Assembly: GCA_009991955.1 (NCBI GenBank)
Contig: JAACWS010000022.1
Location: forward strand, 1-64,000
DNA from: Spirochaetales bacterium
Lineage (GTDB): Bacteria; Spirochaetota; Spirochaetia; DSM-27196; Salinispiraceae
Length of the DNA: 64,000 nucleotides
Direction: 5' to 3'
Under the pieces are notes generated by a model that was not told the origin of the DNA, made no database searches, and saw only the letters and a program-made list of their open reading frames with translations. The translations under genes were made by a program, and so were the position numbers. Below, in pieces: positions 43,397 through 48,836 of the stretch; the stretch's first letter is position 1, and each line of letters begins with the position of its first letter.

Positions 43397-44143
43397 ATGA
43401 TGGTTCGCAATCTTACCGTCGCACTTATAATTGTTTTTCTCGCTGGTTGTCAGTCCCTGCCCCAGGGTGGTCCGCTCAATAGTGAACGACCGGGGCCGAT
43501 TGTGTCGGTCGATGCCCGGAGTGGTATGGGAGGCGACAACGGGTACGGTCAAGAGTACTGGGTGTCCTTCGATGGTCTTACAACCGACCAAGAATTGGTC
43601 GTCCGTTCGGCCATGGAATTGTTAGGACGCGATCGATTAGTTGTCCGGGGTCGAAGATTTACCCTGGATTGTACGGGAGTCGTATTGGCGGCCTACTGGG
43701 GTGCTGGGTTCGACCTAATGCCCCTCTTTAATGCCGAAACTGGCAATGGGGTAAAACGTTTGCACGATATTGGAGTAACCGGCGGCACCCTCAAGGATGA
43801 CCAGAGTGCCCTTCCGGAACCCGGCGACATAATCATTTGGGACAATACCTACGATCGAGACGGAGACAAAAAATGGGGCGACCCAATGACCCACAACGGG
43901 ATTGTAGTCGATGTGACACCCGATGGTCAGGTGACCTACATTCACCATAATTACGCAGCGGGAATTGTAACCGCCCGGATGCACCTGGGCAAGGTCGAAA
44001 CCCACCTGGATGTCGATGGCCGAACCGAGGTGAACTCCCCCATGCGCATGCGTAGCGATCGATACATTCGCCCAAGCCAATGGCTATCGAGTCATCTTTT
44101 TCGAGAATACGTTGAAGTTTTAAGTCTATTAGAGCAGTCTTAG
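43397..44143 (+). CDS. NlpC/P60-like lipoprotein, putative cysteine peptidase
   Basis: This is a protein of about 248 residues. The lipobox VFLAGC follows a short signal. The catalytic cysteine is probably in FTLDCTGVVLAAYWGAG and the histidine in MTHNGIVVDVT, followed by IHHNYAAG. It may hydrolyse peptidoglycan or another amide bond at the surface. Two tandem ATGs (43397 and 43400) are possible starts, and no ribosome site is seen. A TATATT box about 10 bp upstream raises the possibility of a very short leader. Its stop overlaps the convergent polyprenyl synthase gene by 4 nt. Confidence 0.72.
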   Translation: MMVRNLTVALIIVFLAGCQSLPQGGPLNSERPGPIVSVDARSGMGGDNGYGQEYWVSFDGLTTDQELVVRSAMELLGRDRLVVRGRRFTLDCTGVVLAAYWGAGFDLMPLFNAETGNGVKRLHDIGVTGGTLKDDQSALPEPGDIIIWDNTYDRDGDKKWGDPMTHNGIVVDVTPDGQVTYIHHNYAAGIVTARMHLGKVETHLDVDGRTEVNSPMRMRSDRYIRPSQWLSSHLFREYVEVLSLLEQS

Positions 44144-45363
44144 TAATGCCGATTCTCTAAAAATCCCAAGAGAAGGTCTAGTCGTTCGAGTACTCCTGGG
44201 GCTTTACACTCTCTGCAGGCTTTCTGAAACTCCCTGCGGGCTTTTTCGAGGTAGTTCCGACTTCGGGTATCCGCAGCAGAAAATCCCCCCAGACCTCGAA
44301 TATCGTGAATGATAGTATCAAGGACTTCTTCATTCCCTTGGCGGAACTGGCCAATATGCTGGATAAGGGATCTTTGTCGTTCCTTAACCCCTGGGTCCTC
44401 GGGATTTCGAGGGACCAGGGCCTCAATCAGGGGAAGGGTAACTTGCCCATCCCGCAAATCTTGCCCTGGCGGTTTGCCAAAGCGTTGGCGGGAACCCAGG
44501 TAATCCAAAATATCGTCCTGCACTTGAAAGGCCACACCCAAAAAATACCCACCCCGGCGGAAGGACTGAATGGACGAACCCGTTTCGCCAGCCATTTCCC
44601 GGGCCCCAACACTCAGGGAGAGGGAGAAGAGCATCGCGGTCTTTCCGGTAATTACCCGATTGTAGATCCGTCGACTGGGTTGCACTAAAACTCCGTCGAA
44701 ATGCTCGCGATCTAAGGCTTGCTGAAACTCGCTACGAACCATGAGCCGAACCATTCCCGACAAAATCTGTCCGGTCACAACCCGGGAGCCATGGCTGACC
44801 AGGGCAAAACACAGAGACAGCAGCAAGTCGCCCAAAAGAACCGCGTGCCGACTTCCCAGCACCTTCCAAGCCGCAGGCTGTCCCCTGCGCAGGGGCGAAC
44901 CGTCGACCACGTCGTCGTGCACCAGGCTAGCCAGGTGAAGAATTTCCAAGGCGCCGGCCAGGAGATAGATTCGGTTTGGGAGCCCTCCGGGAAAAGGACT
45001 TTCAGCTTTCCAGGCTTCGAGCTCTGGGCTGGCTCGCTCGTCATCTCGGGTAGATCGAAGGGTACTCAGAAGTTTTTGCGACTGGTTTGTCAGCTCCAGA
45101 CCAACCCCGAGTCCCGGGGCATCGGGCAAATGAGGATAGTCCAAACTCGCCCCACCAACCCCCCGAGCCCCAAGAACCACCAGAAGGGGGCGAAGCATTT
45201 TGCCTCCGGCCTTCTTCATTCCTTCCAGGGCCGGGGCGATGATGGGCGACACCCGGGCTTCCTCATCCAAAACCGAATGGATGATGCTTTGAATGTAATG
45301 TAAGTCGGCCCGGATCCATGGCTGTTGGTACAGGGAATCCAGGCCGTCAATAGGTTTATTCAT
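44140..45363 (-). CDS. trans-isoprenyl diphosphate synthase (polyprenyl synthetase)
   Basis: This 407-residue prenyltransferase makes the isoprenoid diphosphate used for quinones or undecaprenyl carriers. The first aspartate-rich motif is LVHDDVVDGSPLRRGQPAAW and the second is FQVQDDILDYLG. The GKTAMLFSLSLSVGA segment separates them. It is about 80 residues longer than common members. An extra stretch of about 45 residues, with SQKLLSTLRSTRDDERASP, sits between the first helix pair and the first motif. The gene follows ndh2 by 36 bp. The pairing suggests production of the quinone tail used by that dehydrogenase. Confidence 0.88.
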   Translation of the reverse strand: MNKPIDGLDSLYQQPWIRADLHYIQSIIHSVLDEEARVSPIIAPALEGMKKAGGKMLRPLLVVLGARGVGGASLDYPHLPDAPGLGVGLELTNQSQKLLSTLRSTRDDERASPELEAWKAESPFPGGLPNRIYLLAGALEILHLASLVHDDVVDGSPLRRGQPAAWKVLGSRHAVLLGDLLLSLCFALVSHGSRVVTGQILSGMVRLMVRSEFQQALDREHFDGVLVQPSRRIYNRVITGKTAMLFSLSLSVGAREMAGETGSSIQSFRRGGYFLGVAFQVQDDILDYLGSRQRFGKPPGQDLRDGQVTLPLIEALVPRNPEDPGVKERQRSLIQHIGQFRQGNEEVLDTIIHDIRGLGGFSAADTRSRNYLEKARREFQKACRECKAPGVLERLDLLLGFLENRHY

Positions 45364-45399
45364 GCCAGGTTCAGTAACCTTTCGTTAGCCTGGTTTGAA

Positions 45400-47550
45400 T
45401 TACTTTTTCTTTTTCTTGATGATTGGCTCACCGCTGTACAGATAGGTTCGCTGGGCCAACTTTGTGGTATTCCAACGATCCTTAATCCAAGGCATTACCC
45501 AGTGGTCCAGACCCGCTACGTGGCCGGCTCCGCCCATCATAACTATTGCTAAGAACACAAACCACAGCTGATTCCAGGTGAACATTCCCGAAAGGGTGAA
45601 CACCACTGTCATACCAATGGTGGCGACCGCAGCACCCCAGGTGAACAATCCACCCATGAGAGCAAGGCCCAAGGCAATTTCCACCAACACAATGCTCCAC
45701 TGGAAGAGACTAAAGTGCAGATGGGCGGCAAGATTATCCATGAAGGTAGTTCGAAACCAGGTAACCAGCGCCGAATCCCATTGGAAAATTGAGGCATCCA
45801 GGTCCCAGTACTTCTTCAATACTTCGCCAGCCACGGGTACCGATTCTTCTACCCACTCCGAGGCGGCAGCAACGGCATCGGCCGCTACGTATGCTGCATC
45901 GGTTACTGAGTCAGTTGCAGCGGTTACCGCATCTGCGATTGGCTCAACGACAGTTCCAGAAGCCGCGGTTCCAACATCGGTCCAGGCTGCATCGGTTGCT
46001 GCACTTACGACCTGGGCTACCTCACTTTCACCGTAACCAGGCATTCCTCGCTGTAGAGTCTTGGATGAGAACATCCATCCCGATCGTGATCGGTCGCCTC
46101 GCAGCCAACCTTCACCAATCTTGTTTGCCCCTTCGATGACCCACATGAGGCCAAGCCACAGTCGAGCGGGCAGTACCCAGTAAGCAGGAACCTTGGCTGC
46201 AACATGACCACCAAGGATCGAACGCTTGTTCTTGATTTGGAAGAACTCTTCCTGTAGGTAGTTCCAGCAGGCGTTGAAGCCTGCTAGGCCCCAGAGGTAA
46301 TGGAGGTTGATAAAGTGCTTCAAAGCCATAGCAAAAAAGCCGTAAAGGTTCATTCCCATGACCGAGGCGACTCCGTACCGACCGCCGATAGAAACCATGA
46401 AACCGTGGTAGTTGGGAACGTAGATCTTCTTTTCTTTCTTCTCTTCTATCTCGGCTACAATGTTGTGAACTGCAACTTCGGCAGTTTGGAGGGCGTTTTC
46501 TACAATCTGGGCCACCACTTTTTCTTGGTGGAGGTACCAGATCATATCCCCTGCCAGATACACGTTTTTATAATCCACCGACTGCATTTCGCCGGAAACC
46601 AAAATCCGCCCCCGTTCTCCTACAATATCCCTTTCGTCTTCGTCAAAATGGCAGCCTGACATTCCGTGGATACCTTCGGGAGTAGCGATCGAACAGTTGT
46701 CGTTGGATTTTCGTCCTTTAGTAAGATCGATTTTTGCGGTAAATTCCGAACCTTGAATACCACAGGTCCAGACAAAGGTGTCGGTTTCAATAACCCGACC
46801 GTCTTTGAGGGTATAGGCACCGTTACTTTCACCTTTGACAATTGGAGCATTCAGGAGGATTTCTACCCCGTTTTTCTCCATATACTCTTTGGCTTTTCGT
46901 TGGGGCTTTTCGGACAGAATTGGCAAAACCCGATCTTGGGCCTCGACCACCATAATTTTGACCTCGTCTCGGTCGATGTGGTACTTCCGGCAAAGGGTAT
47001 CTGCTCGCTCCATCAACTCACCGACGAGTTCGATTCCGGTAAATCCAGCTCCGGCGACTACGAAGGTCAGTTGCTTTCGACGATGGTTTTCGTGGGGTTC
47101 TTTGGCAGCTGCGCGGAACATGAGTTCAACGTGCTCTCGAATTCGTATGGCATCCTCTAAAGACCAGAGGGTAAAAGAATTGGCCTGAATTCCATCGATT
47201 CCGAAGAACTCGGGGTGGCCCCCGGTGGAAAGGACAAGGTAATCGTAGGGATACTCGGCTACCTTGGACTTAAGTTTATTATCTGGAAAATCGATCGCTT
47301 CGATTTCGTCGATAACAACGTTTACTTTGGTGCCCGAGAATATTCGCTTGAAGCTGACCTGGACCGCTTCGGGTTCGGTTCGACTTCCGGCAATTTCGTG
47401 TAACTCGGTCATGAGGGTGTGGTACGGATTCTTGTCTATGAGGGTAATCGATACATTCTGGTTTTTCTTATACTGCTTATTGAGCAGCTTGGCGGCTTCG
47501 ACCCCAGCGTAGCCCCCTCCAAGAATGACGATTTTTGTGGTATCGCCCAT
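45400..47550 (-). CDS. type II NADH dehydrogenase fused to DoxX-like membrane domain
   Basis: This 716-residue protein begins with an FAD motif (VILGGGYAGVEAAKLLN) and has the NAD-binding GAGFTGIELVGELMERA and the membrane-proximal FAD segment VYLAGDM. Together these define NDH-2, which passes electrons from NADH to quinone. From about residue 380 the C-terminal part carries DoxX-like membrane helices (LWLGLMWVIEGANKIGEGW and later helices). An Ala/Val/Asp-rich amphipathic linker of about 70 residues interrupts them. ATG 47550 has AGGAG upstream. Listeria-type electron-transfer NDH-2 also carries an extra membrane domain. Neighbours are the polyprenyl synthase and the NusG-II protein. Confidence 0.9.
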   Translation of the reverse strand: MGDTTKIVILGGGYAGVEAAKLLNKQYKKNQNVSITLIDKNPYHTLMTELHEIAGSRTEPEAVQVSFKRIFSGTKVNVVIDEIEAIDFPDNKLKSKVAEYPYDYLVLSTGGHPEFFGIDGIQANSFTLWSLEDAIRIREHVELMFRAAAKEPHENHRRKQLTFVVAGAGFTGIELVGELMERADTLCRKYHIDRDEVKIMVVEAQDRVLPILSEKPQRKAKEYMEKNGVEILLNAPIVKGESNGAYTLKDGRVIETDTFVWTCGIQGSEFTAKIDLTKGRKSNDNCSIATPEGIHGMSGCHFDEDERDIVGERGRILVSGEMQSVDYKNVYLAGDMIWYLHQEKVVAQIVENALQTAEVAVHNIVAEIEEKKEKKIYVPNYHGFMVSIGGRYGVASVMGMNLYGFFAMALKHFINLHYLWGLAGFNACWNYLQEEFFQIKNKRSILGGHVAAKVPAYWVLPARLWLGLMWVIEGANKIGEGWLRGDRSRSGWMFSSKTLQRGMPGYGESEVAQVVSAATDAAWTDVGTAASGTVVEPIADAVTAATDSVTDAAYVAADAVAAASEWVEESVPVAGEVLKKYWDLDASIFQWDSALVTWFRTTFMDNLAAHLHFSLFQWSIVLVEIALGLALMGGLFTWGAAVATIGMTVVFTLSGMFTWNQLWFVFLAIVMMGGAGHVAGLDHWVMPWIKDRWNTTKLAQRTYLYSGEPIIKKKKK

Positions 47551-47589
47551 AATTTCTCCTTCTAGTAGTGGTTCAAGTACGACCAAAAT

Positions 47590-47671
47590 AGTATACCAAA
47601 CAGGTCATAATGAGAAGTACTCTCGTGACTTTTTTTTATGTTTATTGAGTTTTGTTGTGCCTTTAATCACA
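47590..47671 (-). promoter_or_regulatory. ndh2 promoter with Crp/Fnr-like site
   Basis: On the minus strand TATACT (47595-47590), preceded by TG-G, forms an extended -10 about 40 bp before ATG 47550. Upstream at 47656-47671 the plus strand reads TGTGC-CTTTAA-TCACA, nine of ten bases of the Crp consensus TGTGA-N6-TCACA. The centre is about 80 bp upstream of the predicted start, a common activator position. Regulation by a cAMP- or redox-responsive Crp/Fnr protein is likely. Such a protein is not encoded here. Confidence 0.5.
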
Positions 47672-47675
47672 ATAA

Positions 47676-48077
47676 CTAATAAACTTGCGCATCAACCGAG
47701 TCTTCACCTTCGGCAGCTGCCCGAACGCGGACAAAAACTCTGTTCGGTAGACAGGCACTCCACTCGCCGGTCTGCTCTAACCACCCCGCAGCAACACAGA
47801 TTTGGTCACGACAGGGACTGGACAAGACTCGAACCCGGTTCTCAAGAATTTCGATAACTGTATCGCCGATGGGCCCCTCAAAACTGTAGGTGCCCTGGGT
47901 ATCGAGAGAATAGAGGAAGTCTCCTGCCTCGGCTTGAATAGATACCTGTCCAGGATTTCCTGCCGCACCGTAAGCTCCGAGGGTTACAAACACAAACACG
48001 CCAACACTCAGAAAAAAGGCAAACCAATCCATCGGAAGGAAAAAAAAGCTGTAATCCCCTAGTTTTTTTCTTGCCAT
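47676..48077 (-). CDS. NusG domain II-containing membrane protein (EetA-like)
   Basis: This 133-residue protein has one membrane helix (about 15-40) and an extracytoplasmic NusG-II domain. The pattern includes a central SSPCRDQICVAAGW and CLPNRVFVRVRA, matching DUF1312/NusG-II. In flavin-based electron-transfer loci of Firmicutes, proteins of this type (EetA) are encoded beside NDH-2 and polyprenyl synthase. The cysteine pair in CRDQIC may bind a cofactor or form a disulphide. The start is 3 bp after the NYN gene stop, without a clear ribosome site. A promoter region of 125 bp separates it from ndh2. Confidence 0.75.
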   Translation of the reverse strand: MARKKLGDYSFFFLPMDWFAFFLSVGVFVFVTLGAYGAAGNPGQVSIQAEAGDFLYSLDTQGTYSFEGPIGDTVIEILENRVRVLSSPCRDQICVAAGWLEQTGEWSACLPNRVFVRVRAAAEGEDSVDAQVY

Positions 48078-48080
48078 GGG

Positions 48081-48836
48081 TTATTTTCGCTTACGAATAT
48101 CGCGGATGTAAATAGATTTTGAAGGACTATTTGGGGTAGCCCGACTATCAAACTCAAAAAGCCCAATTGCTCGAATGAGCTCACCCAGTTTCTGGTAACC
48201 ATAGTTCCGGGTATCGAAATCGGGGTACTTATTGCTGATCGCTTGGCCGAGAGTACCAAGGTTTGCCCAACCATCGTCATCGGCCAGATCTTCAAGGGCA
48301 TTTCGAATCGCATTAACTAACCACGAGTCTTGTTTGAGCTCATTAGAGTTCATTCGCTTATTTCGATGTTGTTGTTCGGTTTCTTTTTCCGGTTCTACCC
48401 GTAGATTTTCGGTGTAAATGAACCGGTCGCAGGCTCCGACGAAGGCTTTGGGGGTCTTCTTTTCCCCGAAGCCATAGACCATCATGCCCCCTTCCCGAAG
48501 CCGGGCCGAAAGACGGGTAAAGTCACTATCGCTAGACACTACACAAAATCCATCCAAGGTCTTGGAGTACAGCAGGTCCATGGCGTCGATAATGAGGGCC
48601 GAGTCGGTTGAATTCTTTCCGGTAGTGTAGCTAAACTGCTGAATTGGCTGGAGCCCAAAACGCAGGAGTTCTTCTTTCCACCCTTTCAGATTAGGACTGG
48701 TCCAGTCGCCGTAAATGCGCTTAACACTGGCAATACCCAGGTTTGCTACCTCTTCTAATAGACCCTCGATAATCGAGGGGGCTGCGTTGTCGGCGTCGAT
48801 GAGCACCGCCAAGCGGGGCTGTCGTTGATTGTCCAT
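48081..48836 (-). CDS. NYN-domain (LabA-like) ribonuclease with C-terminal OST-HTH/LOTUS
   Basis: This 251-residue protein begins with an NYN/PIN-like nuclease domain. The acidic residues are visible in AVLIDADNAAP, in NSTDSALIIDAMDLLYS and in CVVSSDSDFTRLS. A charged linker (EKETEQQHRNKRM) leads to a LOTUS/OST-HTH domain (about 165-245, LVNAIRNALEDLADDDGWANLG and LGELIRAIGLF). This combination is common in bacteria and thought to bind and cut RNA, though targets are unknown. It follows thyX by 27 bp and precedes the NusG-II gene by 3 bp. Confidence 0.88.
   Translation of the reverse strand: MDNQRQPRLAVLIDADNAAPSIIEGLLEEVANLGIASVKRIYGDWTSPNLKGWKEELLRFGLQPIQQFSYTTGKNSTDSALIIDAMDLLYSKTLDGFCVVSSDSDFTRLSARLREGGMMVYGFGEKKTPKAFVGACDRFIYTENLRVEPEKETEQQHRNKRMNSNELKQDSWLVNAIRNALEDLADDDGWANLGTLGQAISNKYPDFDTRNYGYQKLGELIRAIGLFEFDSRATPNSPSKSIYIRDIRKRK

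Follow-up and report, generated by a model that had tools for sequence, protein, structure and literature searches.

Flavin-based extracellular electron transfer (EET) of the FLEET type has been worked out in Gram-positive bacteria, and its genes in a spirochaete pose the question of how a chain suited to one membrane would pass an outer membrane. The question is raised by three neighboring genes in the window, that is, the whole 64,000-nucleotide stretch of contig JAACWS010000022.1 (assembly GCA_009991955.1, Spirochaetales bacterium) analyzed here. The locus very likely feeds electrons from NADH to a quinone and then to acceptors outside the cytoplasm, and we read it, with a probability of roughly 0.7, as the core of an electron outlet of the FLEET type that is dispersed, lacks pplA, and operates in a double-membraned host. 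The genome containing the window (G000; 2.44 Mb, 90 contigs, 93% complete) was searched with profiles family by family; relatives are denoted by further G numbers.

Gene content and organization of the locus

As the first-pass annotation had described, a polyprenyl diphosphate synthase, a type-II NADH dehydrogenase (NDH-2), and a NusG domain II (NusG-II) protein are grouped together, all on the minus strand and in the transcription order NusG-II, NDH-2, polyprenyl synthase (Table 1); EetB, ApbE, and a flavin lipoprotein are absent from this region of the window, again as described there. The EetA-like NusG-II protein (PF07009, 67.8 bits; cut-off 29.6) has a single N-terminal membrane helix (residues 19–37) and three cysteines (CRDQIC...C), and is 31% identical to EetA of Enterococcus gilvus, whose FLEET-type locus is complete and annotated MenA-MenA-ApbE-PplA-Ndh2-NusG_II-Gx transporter-polyprenyl synthase. 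The DmkB-like synthase (PF00348, 162 bits) has two DDxxD motifs, DDVVD and DDILD, and is 34% identical to E. gilvus DmkB. The locus is flanked upstream by genes for a NYN/LOTUS protein and ThyX and downstream by those for a CHAP-like protein and a rhomboid protease. As far as known, the NYN/LOTUS protein lies outside the pathway; many families of the order keep its gene beside eetA.

The gap between eetA and ndh2 contains a palindrome that is the sole match with no more than one mismatch within the 64 kb, 1.75 matches being expected at up to two mismatches. G002 (L049:10137) and G001 (L113:1065) have similar palindromes between EetA and PplA, and G000 encodes two Rex-type DNA-binding proteins. 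The Rex and CRP consensus sequences are indistinguishable here, and the palindrome was not counted as evidence.

Table 1. Positions of the locus and of related features in the window and elsewhere in G000 (locus handle, with genome and contig in brackets).
Feature	Position	Strand	Description
eetA-like gene	47676..48077	minus	NusG domain II protein, PF07009
ndh2-like gene	45400..47550	minus	type-II NADH dehydrogenase, PF07992 + PF00070
dmkB-like gene	44140..45363	minus	polyprenyl diphosphate synthase, PF00348
eetA/ndh2 intergenic gap	47551..47675	minus	125 bp
Palindrome TTGTGCCTTTAATCACAA	47655..47672	+	1 mismatch to TTGTGA-N6-TCACAA; weak candidate Rex- or CRP-like site
NYN + OST-HTH/LOTUS protein gene	48081..48836	minus	PF01936, PF12872; upstream neighbor of eetA
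EetB gene	L044:5429-6679 (G000:C18)	minus	long C-terminal membrane half; adjoins kbl and rny
PplA-repeat-like secreted protein	L155:3800-4228 (G000:C89)	minus	142 aa; resembles a single PplA repeat
Nqr/Rnf-like cluster	L109:7372-11566 (G000:C34)		NqrB/RnfD-, NqrC/RnfG-, NqrD-, NqrE-, and NqrF-like genes

The NADH dehydrogenase

The longest NDH-2 frame spans 45400-47586, and the likelier start is the ATG at 47550, which is preceded by a ribosome-binding site and gives a protein of 716 aa. Two GxGxxG-type nucleotide-binding motifs are followed by an Ala-rich linker and a hydrophobic C-terminal part with hydrophobic segments near residues 611–680, bearing out the extra membrane domain proposed from the sequence at the outset. 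The closest solved structures are NDH-2 enzymes, with an alignment spanning the first ∼426 residues; canonical NDH-2 (e.g., PDB 4nwz) has the FAD/NADH catalytic part in common with the window protein but is without its linker and C-terminal membrane domain. E. gilvus FLEET Ndh2, in contrast, is matched over its full length (430 bits) and carries an Ala-rich linker in the corresponding position. Identity to it is higher in the C-terminal membrane domain (49%; residues 598–692 against 537–631) than in the catalytic part (40%), which favors the FLEET reading. Among the 25 matches listed from a plasmid collection, most align to the catalytic part alone, at ∼30% identity or less, and the C-terminal domain is covered by none but those of Acetoanaerobium, Enterococcus, and Listeria (∼41% identity).

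By its domain architecture, the window protein is thus placed with the FLEET Ndh2 enzymes. In an NDH-2 tree, long branches meet and the deep forks are weakly supported, and a clade with the Firmicutes FLEET Ndh2 is neither shown nor excluded. A match of the C-terminal domain to Pfam DoxX fell below the cut-off and was not used, and an AlphaFold model of NDH-2 built from four sequences was discarded (mean pLDDT 34).

Conservation across the order

Synteny of Ndh2 and DmkB, often with EetA, is order-wide. In relatives 52–81% identical in NDH-2, DmkB adjoins NDH-2 at almost every locus of sufficient length to judge, and in 12 genomes the distance from EetA to NDH-2 is at most ∼3.5 kb; several families have the recurrent order ThyX-NYN-EetA-[PplA]-[ApbE]-Ndh2-DmkB-[CHAP]-[rhomboid], with ApbE inside the locus in G002, G003, G006, and G028. 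In Spirochaetes bacterium GWB1_60_80 (L129), MenA, Ndh2, and DmkB are encoded side by side. Polyprenyl synthases and NusG domains do occur in other contexts, and the three genes might have been chance neighbors, the synthase making a cell-wall carrier lipid and the NusG-II protein acting in transcription. However, because the adjacency of Ndh2 and DmkB (in GWB1_60_80 as well) and the proximity of EetA recur in relatives, the grouping is not by chance; EetA, moreover, is a membrane protein with a FLEET homolog, and the chance-neighbor explanation is already refuted by the synteny.

Under a published operational definition, in which a membrane NADH dehydrogenase lies within ≤5 genes of a secreted ApbE or an FMN-binding protein (PMC8238504), such loci are found in G001, G002, G003, G006, and G028; in the window, secreted ApbE and FMN-binding protein are both absent nearby. 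In G026, an EetA-EetB pair adjoins a divergent gene for an FMN_bind and fumarate-reductase-like flavoprotein (L006, contig C36), which is a possible alternative flavinylated acceptor.

Remaining EET genes in the genome

The other genes that the first-pass annotation had proposed to look for were recovered in large part: eetB (contig C18), apbE/fmnB (C33), and a dmkA-like gene (C29) are present, but pplA was not found. EetB (PF07456, 107 bits; 29% identity to E. gilvus EetB) forms part of a 416-aa protein that is perhaps an EetB/ECF-T fusion, its C-terminal half being weakly ECF-T-like in sequence (CbiQ as the sole match, 11.6 bits, below cut-off). The half equivalent to this part is a separate neighboring gene in G007 and G004, and EetB-ECF-T fusions have been reported (PMC9973259). 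EetB stands beside kbl and rny in G002 and G003 as well. The secreted ApbE (PF02424, 309 bits; 41% identity to E. gilvus ApbE) has a lipoprotein-type signal with a lipobox-like ALVGC. On the same contig as the window locus (C29, ∼100.0-100.9 kb), a UbiA-family protein, 30% identical to E. gilvus MenA, has DHNA polyprenyltransferases as its top NCBIfam matches (best NF009926, 159 bits), all below the strict cut-offs. Each of these three proteins is best matched by its E. gilvus counterpart.

The case against an EET locus had been set at the outset as a lack of the remaining EET genes combined with a NusG-II protein from another pathway; EetB, ApbE, and a DHNA polyprenyltransferase are instead encoded elsewhere in the genome. 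Together with the FLEET-type C-terminal domain of Ndh2, and with the same locus in relatives carrying ApbE and/or PplA beside EetA, Ndh2, and DmkB, they support the original reading. Alternatively, the NqrC/RnfG-like protein encoded on contig C34, and not EET, may be what ApbE and EetB serve. The cluster encoding that protein has no adjoining NqrA gene and has the composition of a mixed NQR/Rnf-type complex.

Apparent loss of PplA

In G000, PplA was not found (best NF041941 match 22.8 bits), and the FMN_bind profile PF04205 gave a single match, the NqrC/RnfG-like subunit on C34. In G001, of the same genus, a double-FMN lipoprotein is encoded between EetA and Ndh2 (NF041941, 137 bits; L113:975-196), and in G002, of the same family, a PplA-type lipoprotein gene occupies this slot with ApbE beside it (124 bits; L049:10039-9287); in the window, the position of these genes corresponds to the 125-bp gap. 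G003, a single contig, has EetA, ApbE, Ndh2, and DmkB together and no clear PplA. Because G001 and G002 carry PplA and G003 has no clear PplA, it is probable that the ancestor had the lipoprotein and that some lines have lost it, although a pplA gene of G000 could be hidden in the unassembled part.

The 22.8-bit match falls on the 142-aa secreted protein on C89, which has DAISGVSIT where the FMN attachment motif would stand and is, by its sequence, a possible periplasmic flavoprotein. As a substitute for PplA it is a lead only (FMN_bind 14.4 bits), and a longer homolog in G003 is without the motif in this form. A similar 143-aa protein with DGISGVSIT is encoded in G028 (L150).

The apparent loss might mean that the pathway is a decaying remnant, idle since pplA disappeared, with EetB and ApbE kept for the Nqr/Rnf-like complex, whose NqrC/RnfG-like protein is of the type that ApbE modifies; G000 is also smaller than G002 and G003. 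We consider this unlikely, since ndh2, dmkB, and eetA are intact, keep their motifs, and have high identity to relatives, and since Lactococcus, which lacks only pplA among the FLEET genes, yet gives anode current (PMC8837199). Lactiplantibacillus plantarum, too, can produce current without PplA (PMC8837199).

Quinone headgroup and terminal oxidase

Among 11 genomes searched with one marker gene per headgroup pathway, MenB gave only matches below the cut-off and MqnA none. Because neither was detected, in spite of the DHNA polyprenyltransferase and DmkB, we infer that cells probably import the headgroup, DHNA or a naphthoquinone like it, by analogy with L. plantarum, which performs EET with exogenous DHNA (PMC10746273). 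Cytochrome bd oxidase (PF01654) is absent from G000 and 30 relatives; the same profile detected it in 10 of 14 control genomes. This absence from all 31 genomes bears on a further explanation, an ordinary respiratory NDH-2 feeding a terminal oxidase beside an unrelated prenyl synthase. Its catalytic part is indeed normal, but with no bd oxidase, with a C-terminal domain common to FLEET Ndh2 and uncovered in canonical NDH-2 matches, and with linkage to EetA, DmkB, ApbE, and PplA kept, such a role is very unlikely.

Proposed electron flow

From this gene content we infer the following course of electrons for the FLEET-type outlet. Ndh2, anchored in the inner membrane by its C-terminal domain, would oxidize cytoplasmic NADH and reduce a quinone of the (demethyl)menaquinone type in that membrane; DmkB would make the polyprenyl tail, and the DHNA polyprenyltransferase on C29 would couple headgroup and tail. 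EetB on C18 would provide the periplasm with FAD, and FMN would be attached to periplasmic proteins by the secreted lipoprotein ApbE (C33). The end carrier in the nearest relatives would be the double-FMN lipoprotein PplA; without it, electrons might exit by way of another flavoprotein or of free shuttles such as DHNA and flavins, and true EET from a double-membraned cell would need shuttles or an outer-membrane step. In Listeria, export of FAD requires EetB, which binds this flavin, and deletion of eetA has no phenotype (PMC9973259), the latter counting against the FLEET reading. Against it stand also the missing PplA, the scatter of the genes over at least three contigs as opposed to the compact loci of Firmicutes, and the spirochaete outer membrane.

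That outer membrane lends itself to a module confined to the periplasm, in which flavinylated reductases of the periplasm, or ferric iron destined for uptake, would accept the quinol electrons, with no reduction outside the cell. Flavinylated reductases and links of flavinylation to iron uptake are known (PMC8238504), and FMN_bind proteins are numerous in relatives, including the one joined to a fumarate-reductase-like frame in G026. On the other hand, the locus partner in G001 and G002 is a stand-alone PplA-type lipoprotein, of the kind that faces ferric iron or electrodes, and in G000, with its single PF04205 match, no flavinylated reductase was found; a purely periplasmic role is therefore possible but doubtful. 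Extending the FLEET reading to the whole order would have these double-membraned spirochaetes respire to outside acceptors through a cytochrome-free chain with naphthoquinone headgroups made by neighbors, PplA being dropped in some members and replaced there by free shuttles or another periplasmic flavoprotein. This extension is tentative; if true, it would explain the presence of spirochaetes in electrode and iron-oxide enrichments, which is on record with no mechanism stated in the accessible parts of the papers (PMC7555509; PMC13374861).

Comparison with known systems

FLEET genes in the spirochaete phylum are already known. A 2019 paper mentions in passing a spirochaete module of cad(PplA), ApbE, NADH dehydrogenase, and prenyltransferase (PMC7074142), and a 2022 paper likewise mentions Ndh2, DmkAB, EetAB, FmnB, and PplA in the Sphaerochaetaceae MAG OKU10 (PMC8921683). 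These spirochaetes have the same gene set as G000, with PplA in OKU10, and belong to another family; the parts of the two papers available to us contain no locus analysis and leave the loss of pplA and the missing quinone pathway undiscussed. In the accessible portions of open papers, no description was found of the order-wide synteny, the apparent PplA loss in G000, or the lack of headgroup and bd-oxidase genes. The order-wide gene set offers a possible mechanism for the enriched spirochaetes and makes spirochaetes testable candidates for flavin-based EET.

In Listeria, Enterococcus, and Lactiplantibacillus, the FLEET locus is arranged fmnA-dmkA-fmnB-pplA-ndh2-eetAB-dmkB, whereas the genes of G000 lie on at least three contigs, PplA was not found, no separate FmnA was seen, and EetB has a long C-terminal extension; the host, moreover, is double-membraned, and the headgroup pathway was not found. 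Lactococcus lactis makes its own quinones (PMC8837199) and has cytochrome bd, whereas MenB, MqnA, and cytochrome bd were not found in G000. As in Lactococcus, however, which has every FLEET gene but pplA (PMC8837199), pplA is missing from the FLEET genes found in G000, and with the Listeria, Enterococcus, and Lactiplantibacillus systems G000 has in common homologs of Ndh2, membrane domain included, EetA, EetB, DmkB, DmkA, and FmnB/ApbE.
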